A stretch of DNA of 64,000 nt from Pseudofrankia sp. DC12 (GTDB taxonomy: Bacteria > Actinomycetota > Actinomycetes > Frankiales > Frankiaceae). The DNA lies in contig NZ_KQ031391.1 of the NCBI RefSeq assembly GCF_000966285.1, positions 616,978 through 680,977 on the forward strand. The letters are read 5' to 3'. How positions within the stretch are numbered: position 1 is the first letter of the stretch; each line of letters opens with the position of its first letter. This document shows positions 58,588-63,982 of this stretch, piece by piece. The notes beneath the pieces are model-generated. The model saw only the letters and a program-made list of their open reading frames with translations, ran no database searches and had not been told where the DNA came from. The position numbers and the translations under genes were made by a program.

Positions 58588-61332
58588 GTGGCGGGATCGA
58601 CACCACCCCCGGTATCCGGCAATGCCCCGGCCCCGCTGAACGCGGCGGATCCACGCAAGCTGGGCAAGTACGTGATCACCGGGCGGCTCGGCCAGGGCGG
58701 AATGGGAACTGTCTTCCTTGGTCACAGTCCCGACGGCGACGCCGTCGCGATCAAGGTAATCAAGCCTGAGCTCGCCGAGCGCCCGGAGTTCCGGGCCCGG
58801 TTCCGCCGGGAGGCCGAAAGCGCCCGCCGGGTCCGGCGGTTCACGACGGCGGCGGTTCTCGACGCCGACCCGGACGGCCCGTGGCCGTACCTGGTGACCG
58901 AGTACGTCGAGGGCCCGACGCTGTCGAAGATGGTCGGCCGCCGCGGCCCGCTGCGCCCGGCCGACCTGGAGCAGATGGCGCTCTCGGTGGCGACCGCGCT
59001 CTCCGCGATCCACGCCGCCGGGATCGTGCACCGGGACCTGACCCCGGCCAACGTCCTGCTGTCCCCGGTCGGCCCGAAGGTGATCGACTTCGGGCTGGCC
59101 CGCGACTTCGAGGGATCCGGCGAGTTCTCCCGGACCGCCAAGCACGCGATCGGCACCCCCGGCTACATGGCCCCCGAGCAGATCATGGACTCGCCCGTCA
59201 CGTCGGCCGCCGACGTCTTCGCCTGGGGAGCCATCACCGTCTTCGCCGCGACCGGCCGCCAGCCCTTCGGCGAGGGCCGCATCGAGGCGCTGCTCTACCG
59301 GATCCTCTACGAGCCCGCCAACATCGAAGGCGTCCCCGCCGAGCTCGCGCCGCTGGTCGACGCCGCGCTGCGCAAGAACCCGGCGGAGCGACCGACGGCC
59401 GAAGAGCTGCGGATCTCCCTGATGAGCGGCGCCGCGCTGCCCGCGGCCCGGCTGGCGGCCTCCGGGCCGGCGGCGCAGGAGGCGACCTCCACCGGCGGCA
59501 AGGACAGCGCCCGCCGCCGACGCGGCCACCTGTTCGGCCGCGGCCGCCACCAGGACGGCGACGAGGCCGTGTCCGGTGCGCCCCTGTCCGGCGCGACCAC
59601 TGGTCTGCTCACCCCGGCTCCGGCCACGACCGGTGCCCCGATCTCGGCCCCGCCGACCTCCGTCACTCCGGTCGCGCCAGCGCCGCGGCCGGTCCCGGCG
59701 CCGTCGGCCGCCCCCGGCTCGACCGGTGGACCGGTCGCCCGGTCCGCCGGGCCTCAGCCGCCGACGCTCGCGCCGCGTCCGACGACCCCGGCGCCGCCCA
59801 CGACCCGGACGCCGCCGCCGCGCACACCGGTACCGCGCACACCGGTACCGCACCCCTCGGCACCGCCGGCCACCACGCCCTCCCCCGCGCACGTCTCGCC
59901 GGCGCCAGCCGTGCAGGCCCGCCCGCAGGCCGCGCCCGGGGACGAGCGAGCCGCCGCCGCGGCGACGGCCCACGTCGCGCCGCCCACCGGGACCGTTGAC
60001 GAGGCGCGGCCGGCGCGCGCCGGGCGCGGCCGGCGCACGGTCGTGCTGGTAGCCGCCGGGCTGGTGCTGCTTGCCGCCGCGGTAGGCATCCCACTGGTGG
60101 TCGCGAACGGGTCCGGTGGCGGCAGCGGGCCGTCGTCGGTGTCCCCGGCGCGGGCCGCCGAGCTGTCCAACACCCTCGCGAAAGCCGCCGACGCGGCCCG
60201 CCCGACCAACCAGGCCCGCGCGGCCCGGCTCAGCCTCGCCGCCTACCGGATCGCGCCGACCCAGGCCGCGTCTAGCGCCATGGTCGCGTCCTTCGCGGCC
60301 AGCTCCCAGGTGAGCCTGCCTGGTTCGCCCGCCGCCTACACCGGCGTAGCGCTGACCACCGACGGCCGCCTCGCCGCGGCCACCGACGAGGCCGGCCGGG
60401 TCCGGCTGTGGGACCTGGCCTCGGCGACGCCGGCGCTGCTCGCGGACATCGCCACCGGGGACAGCGGTGCGCCGTCGGCCCCGGTGTTCCTGCCGGGCGG
60501 TGACCTGCTGACCGGAGGCGAGATCGGCCACGCGTGGGCCCTCGCCGACCCGCACGCGCCGCGGGCGATCTCCGACGTGAAGCCGCAGGCCAGCCAGCCG
60601 CAGCGGCTGGCGCTGTCCGGCGACGGGAGGCTGCTGGTCACCGCCGGCCAGGACCGGTTCGTCGAGCTGTGGGACCTGGCCGATCCGGCGAACCCGAAGT
60701 GGCTGGGCCTGAAGGTGACCTCGGGGATCATCACGGATATCGCGCTCAGCCAGGACGGGCACACGCTCGCCGTCGCCGGCGTCGACGGCACGGTGTCCCT
60801 GTGGGACCTCGCCGACCCGCGCAACCCCGTCCAGCGGGGATCCGCCATCGGGCACCTCGGCCAGGTCACCTCGGTCGCATTCCTGCCGGGTGGCAAGCGC
60901 ATCGTCACCGGGGGAAGCGACAAGACGGTCCGGCTTTGGAACATCACGGACCTCAACGCGCCGCGACAGATCGGCCAGGTGACCCAAGGCAGCGCACCGG
61001 TGGTGGACGTGGCGGCGCTCGGGCCGGGCCTGGTCGTCAGCAGCGACGCGAGTGGCGGCCTGCTCGGCTGGAGCGTCGACGCGGCGAACACCCCCAGCTC
61101 CTTCTCGCTGGGCAAGGGCACCGCCGGCCTCGACCTGGCCGTTGGCGGGGCCGGGAAGATGCTGCTGACGGCGCCCGCGAGCGGCACCCCCGGCGCCGCG
61201 TCGCTGATCTCCACCGACCCGGCCCGCCTGGCGGCCCTCGCCTGCGCGAATCCGGCAAACAGGATCGGCGCGTCGGAATGGAAATCCCTCATCTCCGACC
61301 TCGCCTACTCCGACCCGTGCGCCGGGCGATAA
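58588..61332 (+). CDS. Transmembrane Ser/Thr protein kinase with outer WD40-like domain
   Basis: 914 residues from GTG 58588 (GAGGGGGAGGGG before it). Kinase domain 27-285: GQGGMG loop (35), catalytic Lys56 in VAIKVI, HRD 148-150 in HRDLTPANVLL, DFG at 167, and APEQ. The usual Lys two places after HRD is Thr. A 195-residue Pro/Thr/Ala linker leads to one membrane span (484-508, VVLVAAGLVLLAAAVGIPLV). Outside lies a WD40-like propeller (about 585-890) with RLWDLA, ELWDLA, SLWDLA and RLWNIT repeat ends. Hanks-type kinases with outer sensor domains control cell wall and development. The propeller could sense a surface ligand. It lies directly upstream of the Hsp70-like fusion. Confidence 0.93.
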   Translation: MAGSTPPPVSGNAPAPLNAADPRKLGKYVITGRLGQGGMGTVFLGHSPDGDAVAIKVIKPELAERPEFRARFRREAESARRVRRFTTAAVLDADPDGPWPYLVTEYVEGPTLSKMVGRRGPLRPADLEQMALSVATALSAIHAAGIVHRDLTPANVLLSPVGPKVIDFGLARDFEGSGEFSRTAKHAIGTPGYMAPEQIMDSPVTSAADVFAWGAITVFAATGRQPFGEGRIEALLYRILYEPANIEGVPAELAPLVDAALRKNPAERPTAEELRISLMSGAALPAARLAASGPAAQEATSTGGKDSARRRRGHLFGRGRHQDGDEAVSGAPLSGATTGLLTPAPATTGAPISAPPTSVTPVAPAPRPVPAPSAAPGSTGGPVARSAGPQPPTLAPRPTTPAPPTTRTPPPRTPVPRTPVPHPSAPPATTPSPAHVSPAPAVQARPQAAPGDERAAAAATAHVAPPTGTVDEARPARAGRGRRTVVLVAAGLVLLAAAVGIPLVVANGSGGGSGPSSVSPARAAELSNTLAKAADAARPTNQARAARLSLAAYRIAPTQAASSAMVASFAASSQVSLPGSPAAYTGVALTTDGRLAAATDEAGRVRLWDLASATPALLADIATGDSGAPSAPVFLPGGDLLTGGEIGHAWALADPHAPRAISDVKPQASQPQRLALSGDGRLLVTAGQDRFVELWDLADPANPKWLGLKVTSGIITDIALSQDGHTLAVAGVDGTVSLWDLADPRNPVQRGSAIGHLGQVTSVAFLPGGKRIVTGGSDKTVRLWNITDLNAPRQIGQVTQGSAPVVDVAALGPGLVVSSDASGGLLGWSVDAANTPSSFSLGKGTAGLDLAVGGAGKMLLTAPASGTPGAASLISTDPARLAALACANPANRIGASEWKSLISDLAYSDPCAGR

Positions 61333-61495: not shown

Positions 61496-63982
61496 ATGGG
61501 CTACCAGCTTGGTATCGACATCGGAACGGCGAACACCACCGTCGCGGTCGCCTCGGGCGACTGGCCCCAGATTCTGACGGTCGCCGGCGGTCCGTCGATT
61601 CCGACGGTTCTCTATTTCCCGGCCGGTGCCCCGGTGGTGTTCGGCCGCGCCGCCGCCCGGCGCGCGCTCGCCGAGCCGTCGCGGGCGGCACACGGGTTCC
61701 TGCGCCGGATCGGCGACTCCGCCCCGGTCATGGCCGGCGGGTCCGCCTACACACCCGAGGGCCTGGTCACCCGGTTCCTCGACCGCGTGCTCGCGTCCGT
61801 CACCGAGAACCGGGGCGAGGCGCCGGACCAGGTCGTCGTGACCTACCCGACCAGCTGGACCTCGCGGCGCCGCGAGCTGTTCACGGAGGCGCTGGAGCGC
61901 CTGGACGTGGACGTCCCGGTGCGGGCGGTGCCGGCGGCCGACGCGCTCGGCGCCGTGTTGGCCCGGCGCGCGGCGGCCAGGACGCCCGGCCGCGGCGCGG
62001 ACCTGATCGCGGTCTACGACTTCGGGGCCGGCGCGTGCGAGGCCGCCGTGCTGTCCGTCTCCGACTACGGCGCCGAGGTCGCCGGCACGCCGGCCGGGAT
62101 GGCCGGTGTCGAGATCGACGATTTGTTGCTGGAGCACGTGCTGGCCGCGAGCGGGGTGGACGTCGCCCTGCTGGACCGGACCGAGCCGGCCACGGCCGCG
62201 GCGCTCGGCCGGCTGCGCGCCGAGGTCGTCGCGGCCAAGGAGACGCTCGCGGCCGACGACGAGGCGTCGGTCCCGGTCACCCTGCCCGGGGCGTTCGCCT
62301 GGGTGACGCTGCGCCGCGAGGACCTGGAGAGGCTGGTCACGCCCGCGGTCGAGGACAGCGTCCGGGTGCTGGCCAGGACGGTCCGCTCGGTTCCCACGAC
62401 CGCGGGCGGCCTGTCGTCGGTGCTGCTGTACGGCGGTCTCGCGCGGATGCCGCTGGTCGGCCAGCTGGTCCGGGCCGCGCTGCCCGGCGCGCGCCGGTTC
62501 GAGGAGCCGCCCGCGGAGGATCTGGCGATCGGGGCCGCGCTGCTGGCGATCGGCCTCGCCGAGCAGGCCGAGCCGCCGGCCGGTGGTGAGACCGCGGTGA
62601 TCGGCGGCGCCACGCTGGAGCCGCCGGAGCTCTCGTCGTTCCCGGGGGTGTCGCTGCCGCCGTCGGGCGCGCTCGCCGGCGCGGGAGCGGCCGTGCCGTT
62701 CGCCGCCGCGAGCGGGCCGGACGACGCGGACGCGACCGCCTTGATCACCGCGGCCTACGAGTCGTTCCCGGCCGGGGCCGCCGCGACCGCCGGCGGGACA
62801 CAGCCGACGGGGCTCGCGGCGTGGAGCACCGGCGCCGCTGCGGCAGCGCCGCCCAGCGGCGGAGCGGCCGGGCCCGCAGCGGCCAGCGGCGGAGCGGCCG
62901 GCGGCCGCAACCGCCGGCGCCGCGGCGGCCTCGGGGCCCTGCGCTCCGCGGGCGGGATCGCGGCGCTGGTCGCGGCCGTCGTCTTCATCGCCGGCGGCAC
63001 GACGCTCGGAGTCGTGCTCACCCAGGGCGGCGGCAACGACACCGCCGCCGTGCAGGCGACGACCGCGCCGGCCGTCGCACCCGCGACGGTCACCGCGCCC
63101 ACCACCGCGGCGGCGGCACCCTCGCGAAACGTGGTGCGGGTCGCGGACTCCGACGAGGTGGCCCCGATCCTGGAGAAGGCGTCCCAGGAGCTGGCGTCGA
63201 GCCAGCCGAACGTCACCGTCGCCTTCGACTCGACCGTCACCGACACCACCACGGCGTTCGCCAAGCTCTGCTCCGGTGAGGCCGCGATCGCCGGCGCCTC
63301 GTTCGAGCTGGACCCGAAGTTCGCGCCCGACCCGAGCTGCAAGGACAAGGTCGTCGGGTTCGAGATCGCCCACCACACCCTGCCGATCATCGTGAACCCG
63401 GCGAACACCTGGCTGGGCTGCCTGAACCTGACGCAGCTGAAGTCGATCTGGGCCCCCGGCTCGACGATCACCCGGTGGAACCAGATCAACAAGTCCTACC
63501 CGGACGAGCCGATCAACTTCGTCGGCCCGGCGAAGAACACCGTCCAGGCCGAGGTGTTCAACTCCAGCATCAACGGGGACAGCACGAAGTCGCGGGACTA
63601 CACCGTGAGGGACCTGGGCGGCGTCGCGCAGACCGTGCTGTCCGACAAGGACGCGATCGGCTTCCTGGACTTCCCGACGTTCGAGACGCTCGGCGCCCAG
63701 CTGCGCGGCGTGCTGGTCAACGGGGGTTCGGGCTGCGAGCCGCCGAACGCGATCACGGCCGGCACCGGCGTCTACACACCGCTGTGCAAGCCGCTCTACG
63801 TCTACGTGCGGACCGACGCGCTGCGCGACCCCGCGACGGCGGCTTACATGAAGTTCTTCCTGGAGAACGAGCAGTCGATCGCGCAGGTCTCGCACTACGT
63901 CCCCCGCGACGACGCCACCGTGAAGGAGAACATCGACAAGGTCAACAGCCTGACCCAGGGGGTCGGGCCAGTCCCAGCCTGA
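61496..63982 (+). CDS. Hsp70-like ATPase fused through a membrane span to a PstS-like binding domain
   Basis: 828 residues; AGGTGA lies eight bases before ATG 61496. Residues 1-360 form an actin/Hsp70-like nucleotide-binding fold: GIDIGTANTTVAV (phosphate 1), VVTYPTSWTSRRRELF, VYDFGAGACEAAVL (phosphate 2) and VLLYGGLARMPLVGQLV (adenosine motif). The usual substrate-binding domain and lid are absent. A Gly/Ala/Pro linker (360-480) with Arg-rich end leads to one membrane span (about 486-508, ALVAAVVFIAGGTTLGVVLT). Outside, residues 543-828 are a PstS/phosphate-binding-like domain: RVADSDEVAPILEKASQELA, LPIIVNPANTWLGCLNLTQL, IGFLDFPTFETLGAQL and YTPLCKPLYVYVRTDAL. Five cysteines lie in this part, fitting an oxidising exterior. 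The architecture joins a cytosolic ATPase to an extracellular ligand domain. I know of no described function. Confidence 0.9.
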   Translation: MGYQLGIDIGTANTTVAVASGDWPQILTVAGGPSIPTVLYFPAGAPVVFGRAAARRALAEPSRAAHGFLRRIGDSAPVMAGGSAYTPEGLVTRFLDRVLASVTENRGEAPDQVVVTYPTSWTSRRRELFTEALERLDVDVPVRAVPAADALGAVLARRAAARTPGRGADLIAVYDFGAGACEAAVLSVSDYGAEVAGTPAGMAGVEIDDLLLEHVLAASGVDVALLDRTEPATAAALGRLRAEVVAAKETLAADDEASVPVTLPGAFAWVTLRREDLERLVTPAVEDSVRVLARTVRSVPTTAGGLSSVLLYGGLARMPLVGQLVRAALPGARRFEEPPAEDLAIGAALLAIGLAEQAEPPAGGETAVIGGATLEPPELSSFPGVSLPPSGALAGAGAAVPFAAASGPDDADATALITAAYESFPAGAAATAGGTQPTGLAAWSTGAAAAAPPSGGAAGPAAASGGAAGGRNRRRRGGLGALRSAGGIAALVAAVVFIAGGTTLGVVLTQGGGNDTAAVQATTAPAVAPATVTAPTTAAAAPSRNVVRVADSDEVAPILEKASQELASSQPNVTVAFDSTVTDTTTAFAKLCSGEAAIAGASFELDPKFAPDPSCKDKVVGFEIAHHTLPIIVNPANTWLGCLNLTQLKSIWAPGSTITRWNQINKSYPDEPINFVGPAKNTVQAEVFNSSINGDSTKSRDYTVRDLGGVAQTVLSDKDAIGFLDFPTFETLGAQLRGVLVNGGSGCEPPNAITAGTGVYTPLCKPLYVYVRTDALRDPATAAYMKFFLENEQSIAQVSHYVPRDDATVKENIDKVNSLTQGVGPVPA

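Follow-up and report, generated by a model that had tools for sequence, protein, structure and literature searches.

A membrane-spanning Hsp70-type domain joined to a PstS-derived outer domain in Frankiaceae: a possible pseudoenzyme partner of a WD40 receptor kinase

Hsp70 proteins are textbook soluble chaperone machinery, Hspa13/STCH being an Hsp70 nucleotide-binding domain (NBD) without the peptide-binding domain, and receptor Ser/Thr kinases of the PknB/PknD type carry varied outer domains on the far side of the membrane. The passages available to us add that conflict systems contain HSP70-domain proteins "sans" peptide-binding domain (PMC7159879) and, in passing, that the M. smegmatis iniR-iniBAC locus has a dnaK-like gene (PMC5760070). 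Here we describe a gene of Pseudofrankia sp. DC12, lying in a 64,000-nucleotide stretch of contig NZ_KQ031391.1 (positions 616,978 to 680,977; hereafter the window), whose product joins an Hsp70-type NBD through one membrane span to an outer domain derived from the phosphate-binding protein PstS. None of the matches listed from the open-licence literature (titles, abstract starts and passages) describes such a membrane Hsp70 family, and the parts of PMC5587647, PMC4389566, PMC11093716 and PMC5760070 at hand hold nothing on the fusion protein. We posit, with a probability of roughly 0.45, that the fusion is a single-pass membrane pseudoenzyme, an adaptor/co-receptor or scaffold that works with a WD40-bearing receptor kinase.

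The coding sequence stays open from its ATG through 828 codons at 61496-63982 on the + strand (the strand of every window feature placed below), and its genome copy (G000:C1:678473-680959; G, C and L numbers are our handles for genomes, contigs and loci) lies within a single 6.88 Mb contig. Pfam HSP70 matches at E 2.7e-24, the best stretch pairing residues 79-351 with profile positions 102-372 of 599; because the match stops at position 372, the fusion is without a peptide-binding domain, and none was found with this profile. DnaK (PDB 2v7y, E 5.2e-18) is the closest solved chain for residues 4-351, and a phosphate-binding protein (PDB 4jwo, E 6.1e-36) is the closest for residues 533-802. Pfam PBP_like_2 covers residues 537-792 (E 1.5e-14), and the NCBIfam ptsS_2 model (TIGR02136) scores 128.2 bits, under its cut-off of 206.6. 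By Pfam the fusion itself has no kinase domain; the adjoining gene has one. There is only one hydrophobic segment: Kyte-Doolittle (KD) windows of 19 residues above 1.6 start at 478-492 and peak at 490, which gives a single span at about residues 483-511 (62942..63028). The preceding stretch is Arg-rich, and by the positive-inside rule we place the NBD (residues 1-356, 61496..62563) in the cytoplasm; between the two runs a low-complexity linker, residues 357-482 (62564..62941). Pfam, PDB chains, hydropathy and homologues thus bear out the anatomy proposed in the first-pass annotation, with HSP70 in the inner half and PBP_like_2 in the outer half, down to five outer cysteines at 592, 615, 642, 747 and 764. 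An AlphaFold run on the full-length protein (8 sequences) reached a mean predicted local distance difference test score (pLDDT) of 43.1 and was not used.

Could the open reading frame (ORF) be the product of a frameshift or of misassembly? Besides the single contig, a contig scan returned 26 loci. Seven are full-length fusions other than that of the window, in records named Frankia, Pseudofrankia and Parafrankia (Frankiaceae), an eighth fusion is truncated where its contig stops, and 18 loci match with the N-terminal part only, 16 of these being titled Pseudonocardia and 2 coming from other actinobacterial metagenome-assembled genomes. These seven conserved one-ORF fusions lead us to reject an assembly or frameshift join. 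An NBD-profile search of the order, with the regions read out, recovered the fusion as one ORF in 26 of 35 genomes; four (G006, G010, G013, G032) have both kinds of domain outside a single ORF, at contig ends or in broken frames, the NBD found in G010 being of the second-copy type described below, and five (G014, G016, G023, G024, G027) have no fusion. A sample of 296 genomes from the class, searched with the outer-domain profile, yielded no fusion outside the window's family. Profile matches outside that family lie in frames of 323-474 amino acids and are on that account read as free PstS, save one frame of 717 amino acids (G187), which contains one stop and whose separate ORF is of 394 amino acids. 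The fusion is thus present in most of the sampled soil bacteria of the Frankia type and, in this class sample, in no other family.

The ratio of nonsynonymous to synonymous substitution (dN/dS), obtained by a simple counting method in which dS is probably underestimated at this G+C content, is low against the two closest relatives in the NBD (0.09-0.11), the transmembrane segment (0.08) and the outer domain (0.11-0.13), and higher in the linker (0.36-0.52; 0.36-0.95 over six comparisons) and the stalk after the span (0.59-0.84). Against four more distant relatives the NBD gives 0.30-0.39. By these ratios both halves are under purifying selection. A fusion artefact or decaying pseudogene would account for the broken or shortened copies in G013 and among the second copies of G005 and G018, but the single ORF in 26 of 35 genomes and the dN/dS of about 0.1 in both domains against close relatives make the chance of it negligible.

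The inner half is recognizable as an Hsp70 NBD and has lost catalytic residues. Signatures were read from a single alignment in which the DnaK of the genome itself served as reference and which covered 34 fusion-lineage NBDs, among them three that are broken or run off a contig (L015, L112, L118) and the NBD fragment left of the second copy in L107, which is also broken. DnaK K70, E171 and G197 are kept in 0, 0 and 0 of the 34 and T199 in 3, whereas the 46 relatives without a PstS domain keep these four letters in 43, 45, 46 and 45 cases. Taken position by position, 42 to 46 of these 46 clade members retain the catalytic signature, which is broken in all fusions. Seven positions that 43 or more of the 46 relatives retain survive in no more than 4 of 34 fusions: K70, E171, P172, G197, T199 and two serines. 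Five of the seven fall in the K70, E171 and phosphate-2 motifs. The window protein has none of K70, E171 and T199. Leu69 (61700..61702) stands in place of K70; VPAAD at residues 145-149 (61928..61942) replaces the E171 motif (NEPTA/AEPQA), the E171 column falling on residue 145 in one alignment and 147 in another, neither of them acidic; and the phosphate-2 motif reads DFGAGACE (residues 175-182, 62018..62041; DLGGGTFD in DnaK), with Ala for G197, Ala for T199, Glu for D201 and D194 kept. The adenosine-type motif GGLARMPLV (residues 313-321, 62432..62458) is largely kept, with replacement of a Ser found in 45 of 46 relatives. Exceptions among the relatives are L188_10909 and L189_11335 (Val for K70) and L192 (several sites, span not found); the T11 position of L020 is occupied by Ala. 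Separately, L188:10909-12642 and L189:11335-12993, both Hsp70 NBD proteins without a PstS domain, combine the Val at K70 with the sequence DLGGRTFD.

In available passages on DnaK, the K70A and T199A variants bind ATP and are blocked in hydrolysis (PMC5561102; PMC9691929), and K70A also fails in ATP-driven opening (PMC5561102). The fusion NBD, having lost the corresponding residues, is predicted not to hydrolyze ATP and may still hold nucleotide. From the losses of K70, E171 and G197 in 34 of 34 and of T199 in 31 of 34 it follows that the ATPase state, which the first-pass annotation had proposed as the inner output, is an unlikely one. A non-hydrolyzing sensor would be a different matter: the NBD could report the ATP/ADP energy state, with the outer domain as its output, signaling inside-out to wall or surface proteins. 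The retention of D8, G196 and D194 in 30, 34 and 30 of 34 NBDs fits such a sensor, as does ATP binding by the two DnaK variants, but the loss of ATP-induced conformational change that accompanies loss of K70 in DnaK counts against it. Three second copies, moreover, have lost both D8 and D194, and one further NBD each has lost D8 or D194. We consider this nucleotide sensor distinctly improbable.

On the outside, the PstS-derived domain (residues 544-828, 63125..63979) is matched by the 4jwo profile at E 9.5e-56. The best of five AlphaFold2 models has a pLDDT of 82.4 (the others 65.7, 57.1, 52.9 and 40.8), and since Foldseek returns 4jwo as its top match (E 6.2e-25, TM-score 0.61, root-mean-square deviation 6.2), the modeled PstS-type fold can be taken as secure, the arrangement of the lobes not. 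For comparison we aligned 32 fused outer domains (excluding 7 duplicate loci and L177, the second copy of L107, as well as the partial or contig-end pieces L175, L176, G006 and G010 and a further copy, G011:C29) with 16 free relatives, drawn from 39 free-standing profile matches (37 outside the family and 2 inside). The segments DGSSTV, SGTGGGF and ASR and a DSGT-type loop are present in 16 of 16 free relatives, and 4jwo shows the same four, with TASGT; their conservation is computed here, and their roles in phosphate contact we presume from E. coli PstS. All four are changed in 32 of 32 fusions. Glu554 (63155..63157) replaces the Thr of the GSST loop (Glu in 32 of 32 fusions, Thr in 16 of 16 free relatives), Phe603 (63302..63304) replaces the Arg of ASR (Phe or Tyr in all 32), the SGT loop becomes NTVQA, STVHA or the like, and GPAKNTVQAEVF at residues 677-688 (63524..63559) replaces the DSGTFDYF-type loop. 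Of the five cysteines, four (592, 615, 642, 747) are shared: all 16 free relatives have them, as do 32, 32, 31 and 32 of 32 fusions respectively, and three of the four recur in 4jwo. The fifth, Cys764 (63785..63787), is specific to the fusions (32 of 32, against 0 of 16). A search for viral relatives of the outer domain gave 89 pattern stretches, none of them confirmed. The extreme C-terminus (63959-63979) reads GVGPVPA, with G822, V823, P825 and V826 invariant in an 8-sequence alignment, a puzzling conservation for an outer tail.

As far as sequence goes, then, the outer domain lacks the anion-binding residues, an absence that the first-pass annotation itself had named as refuting its proposal. 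The four changed segments and the invariant Glu of the first loop make phosphate, or a similar anion, an unlikely ligand, and the domain is predicted not to bind phosphate. Phosphate sensing therefore goes unsupported by the residues, and membership of a Pst operon was likewise rejected: the neighbors of the fusion are kinase, CNNM and methylmalonyl-CoA mutase genes, and an ordinary PstS-C-A-B set, each member over its NCBIfam cut-off, lies elsewhere in the genome (L058). The PstS of that set is of another subtype (TIGR00975), in which the four segments do not occur in the same form. The receptor originally envisaged, an inner Hsp70 ATPase switched by external phosphate or some other external anion, is matched by the domain order and the single span and is helped by the PstS-type fold; it founders on the loss of K70, E171 and G197 in every fusion-lineage NBD, on the change of the phosphate segments in every fused outer domain and on the separate PstS-C-A-B genes. 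We hold it to be very improbable indeed.

What, then, might a protein of this kind do? Upstream of the fusion, at 58588..61332, lies a gene for a Ser/Thr kinase (domain at residues 28-274) with one strong hydrophobic segment (a span at about 485-505) and WD40 repeats, which on Pfam, hydropathy, linkage and co-occurrence is its probable partner; HRD and DFG are kept in the kinase copies examined. For 27 of the 32 fusions a WD40 match above 120 bits is no more than 2.8 kb away, the two genes standing in tandem for the window's genus and tail-to-tail for most others; the other five fusions (L032, L034, L111, L123 and L118, whose contig is 5.9 kb long) have no kinase-WD40 gene nearby. In L105, L106 and L107 two fusion paralogs flank one shared kinase-WD40 gene; the second copies here are the three without D8 and D194, and that of L107 is broken between frames. 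All 7 fusion-bearing genomes tested, of 30 (G006, G007, G010, G013, G015, G025 and G026, chosen mainly where no neighbor was seen), contain a match of 155-234 bits to the full outer domain of the kinase, the match lying on a different contig from the fusion in G007, G013 and G025. The 5 fusion-lacking genomes contain no such match and gave partial WD40 matches of at most 92 bits or none. Kinase outer domain and fusion thus share presence or absence in 12 of 12 genomes tested. The linker adds a motif of its own, T366-A-V-I (62591..62602): of 30 fusion ORFs, 29 have T-[AVS]-[VILM]-[IL] no further than 45 residues past the NBD, as have the two NBD pieces from broken copies, against 0 of 25 other relatives; in the remaining fusion ORF (L109) it stands further along. 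This count is a sharper test than the excess of T-x-x-[ILV] (102 versus 58.7) over 56 linkers, in which fusions and others are mixed and a few rows are mis-sliced. T366 is a possible kinase site.

Because the fusion is conserved and keeps company with a receptor kinase, we favor the view that an enzyme and a binder, both out of service, have together been given a second use as a signaling part. The cytoplasmic half would be an Hsp70 NBD devoid of hydrolytic residues, possibly still holding nucleotide; the outer PstS-type domain, its phosphate site lost, would bind a protein, a wall component, another non-phosphate partner or a second copy of itself; and the NBD with its disordered linker would give the WD40-bearing kinase a platform for docking and phosphorylation. 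A receptor-like role of the fusion is, judged from sequence, possible, and its partnership with the kinase probable.

Several observations weigh against this interpretation. As the fusions form one clade, the motifs and losses they have in common cannot be counted as independent. D201 is kept in 20 of 34 NBDs and T199 in three, and the acidic residue at 149 (in 33 of 34) is close to the lost E171, for which it might in part substitute. Against the four more distant relatives the outer domain has a dN/dS of 0.44-0.75. The five fusion-lacking genomes include three that are 81-88% complete, one that is 63% complete and one of 3.0 Mb; in G015 the kinase outer domain finds its best match on a contig other than that of the fusion and a weaker one in the copy next to the fusion. 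CNNM-type and methylmalonyl-CoA mutase genes also recur near several fusions (seen by eye; the window genes were confirmed), and since other genes of the region recur too, kinase linkage taken alone is weak and supportive only. Phosphorylation of T366 is itself a prediction.

The fusion has a wider kindred. In a tree of 64 NBD rows, from which 13 duplicate or truncated loci and L178-L192 were left out and in which L127 and the second copies of L105, L106 and L107 were flagged as long branches, all 31 fusions form one clade (support 100/99), which nests in a 57-row clade (100/100) with NBDs from Pseudonocardia and other Frankiales. On this tree the fusions are of single origin. Members of the wider group mostly have one membrane span and differ in their outer parts: L113, L115 and L119 carry ricin-B lectin domains, whose stretches also match the CDtoxinA lectin-like family, a match we take to reflect a shared lectin fold and not a toxin; L124 and L128 have propeller-like tails with weak BNR matches under the Pfam cut-off; no propeller match passes that cut-off in L121, L122 or L129; and some tails hold no Pfam domain and are disordered. 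Outside the order, in a 295-genome sample of the class, the NBD profile matches at E <=1e-75 in 12 genomes, one of whose proteins (L178:5437-7899) has a Vgb/YNCE-type propeller over cut-off. Not all 18 NBD ORFs of these genomes have a clear span, which is weak (KD <1.6) in L185, L189, L191 and one L188 ORF and absent in L192. The outer domains of these NBD relatives vary widely, as in receptor kinases.

Relatives with an intact signature stand, in several actinobacterial families, beside genes for dynamin-type GTPases and/or IniB-type proteins, an arrangement that could represent an Hsp70-dynamin envelope module. Dynamin_N proteins adjoin L016, L017, L025 and L031 (Pseudonocardia), L180 and L191 by Pfam; dynamin-type neighbors of L178, L185, L186, L187 and L190 were recognized by similarity to the L025 protein; and a neighboring IniB-type protein passes the NCBIfam cut-off at L016 and at L030 and narrowly misses it at L025. 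Such neighbors, in Pseudonocardia and other families, lend weight to the notion that the fusion is an envelope scaffold that tethers wall or membrane machinery and carries no signal, and its fifth cysteine could cross-link dimers. Yet among 14 genomes tested no Dynamin_N match was found in that of the window or in five fusion-bearing genomes (G001, G003, G015, G017, G031), though the eight with a match comprise six other fusion-bearing genomes and two from outside the order, and the fusion is linked to a kinase instead. We regard a scaffold of this sort as rather unlikely.

Two further loci of the window's genome deserve mention. L055:4969-8025 (G000:C1 about 3.825-3.828 Mb) codes, in one frame of 1019 amino acids, for an Hsp70 NBD with WD40-like repeats after it. 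At L054:6380-13626 (G000:C1 about 1.413-1.421 Mb) a divergent Hsp70-like gene adjoins one for a 1743-amino-acid protein with TIR and TPR over Pfam cut-offs, which is possibly a conflict or defense locus.

Taken together, the relatives suggest an undescribed actinobacterial class of one-span Hsp70-NBD proteins with interchangeable outer sensors (lectin, beta-propeller, PstS-like), an Hsp70 counterpart of receptor kinases, of which the Frankiaceae branch would be a doubly dead pseudo-receptor, competent in neither hydrolysis nor phosphate binding, and a co-receptor of the WD40 receptor kinase; this broader proposal is tentative, and we would put it somewhat short of even odds. A conserved Hsp70 branch in the membrane, varied in its outer domains, would put the fold to a new use. 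Loss of ligand and catalytic residues on both sides of the membrane under selection would offer a clean natural case for pseudoenzyme signaling, and the fusion is a genetically linked candidate substrate or partner for the Frankiaceae WD40 receptor kinase.

Comparison with known systems sets out what is shared and what is not. With the DnaK/Hsp70 NBD (PF00012) the fusion shares homology over residues 1-356 and the phosphate-1 and adenosine motifs; unlike it, the fusion lacks a peptide-binding domain, has a span and has lost K70, E171 and G197 in all members and T199 in most. Conflict-system HSP70s and Hspa13/STCH differ in that no membrane receptor architecture or PstS domain is mentioned for them in the passages available (PMC7159879, PMC9691929). 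Free PstS of the TIGR02136 (ptsS_2) type, represented by 4jwo, has the same fold and, in 16 free relatives, four common cysteines, whereas the fusion has changed loops, a fifth Cys and an attached NBD and scores under the family cut-off. Also close are the Hsp70-NBD span proteins beside dynamin-type genes in Pseudonocardia and elsewhere, with an MGYQLGID-type start, a linker and usually one span, those of Pseudonocardia falling in the same 57-row clade (100/100); nearly all of these keep the catalytic signature, however, and bear other outer parts with no PstS domain. The dnaK-like gene of M. smegmatis may be a candidate member of the same group. In overall plan the fusion also resembles the receptor kinases of the PknB/PknD type, in which a cytoplasmic module is followed by a linker, one span and a variable outer part, except that its cytoplasmic module is an Hsp70 NBD and not a kinase.

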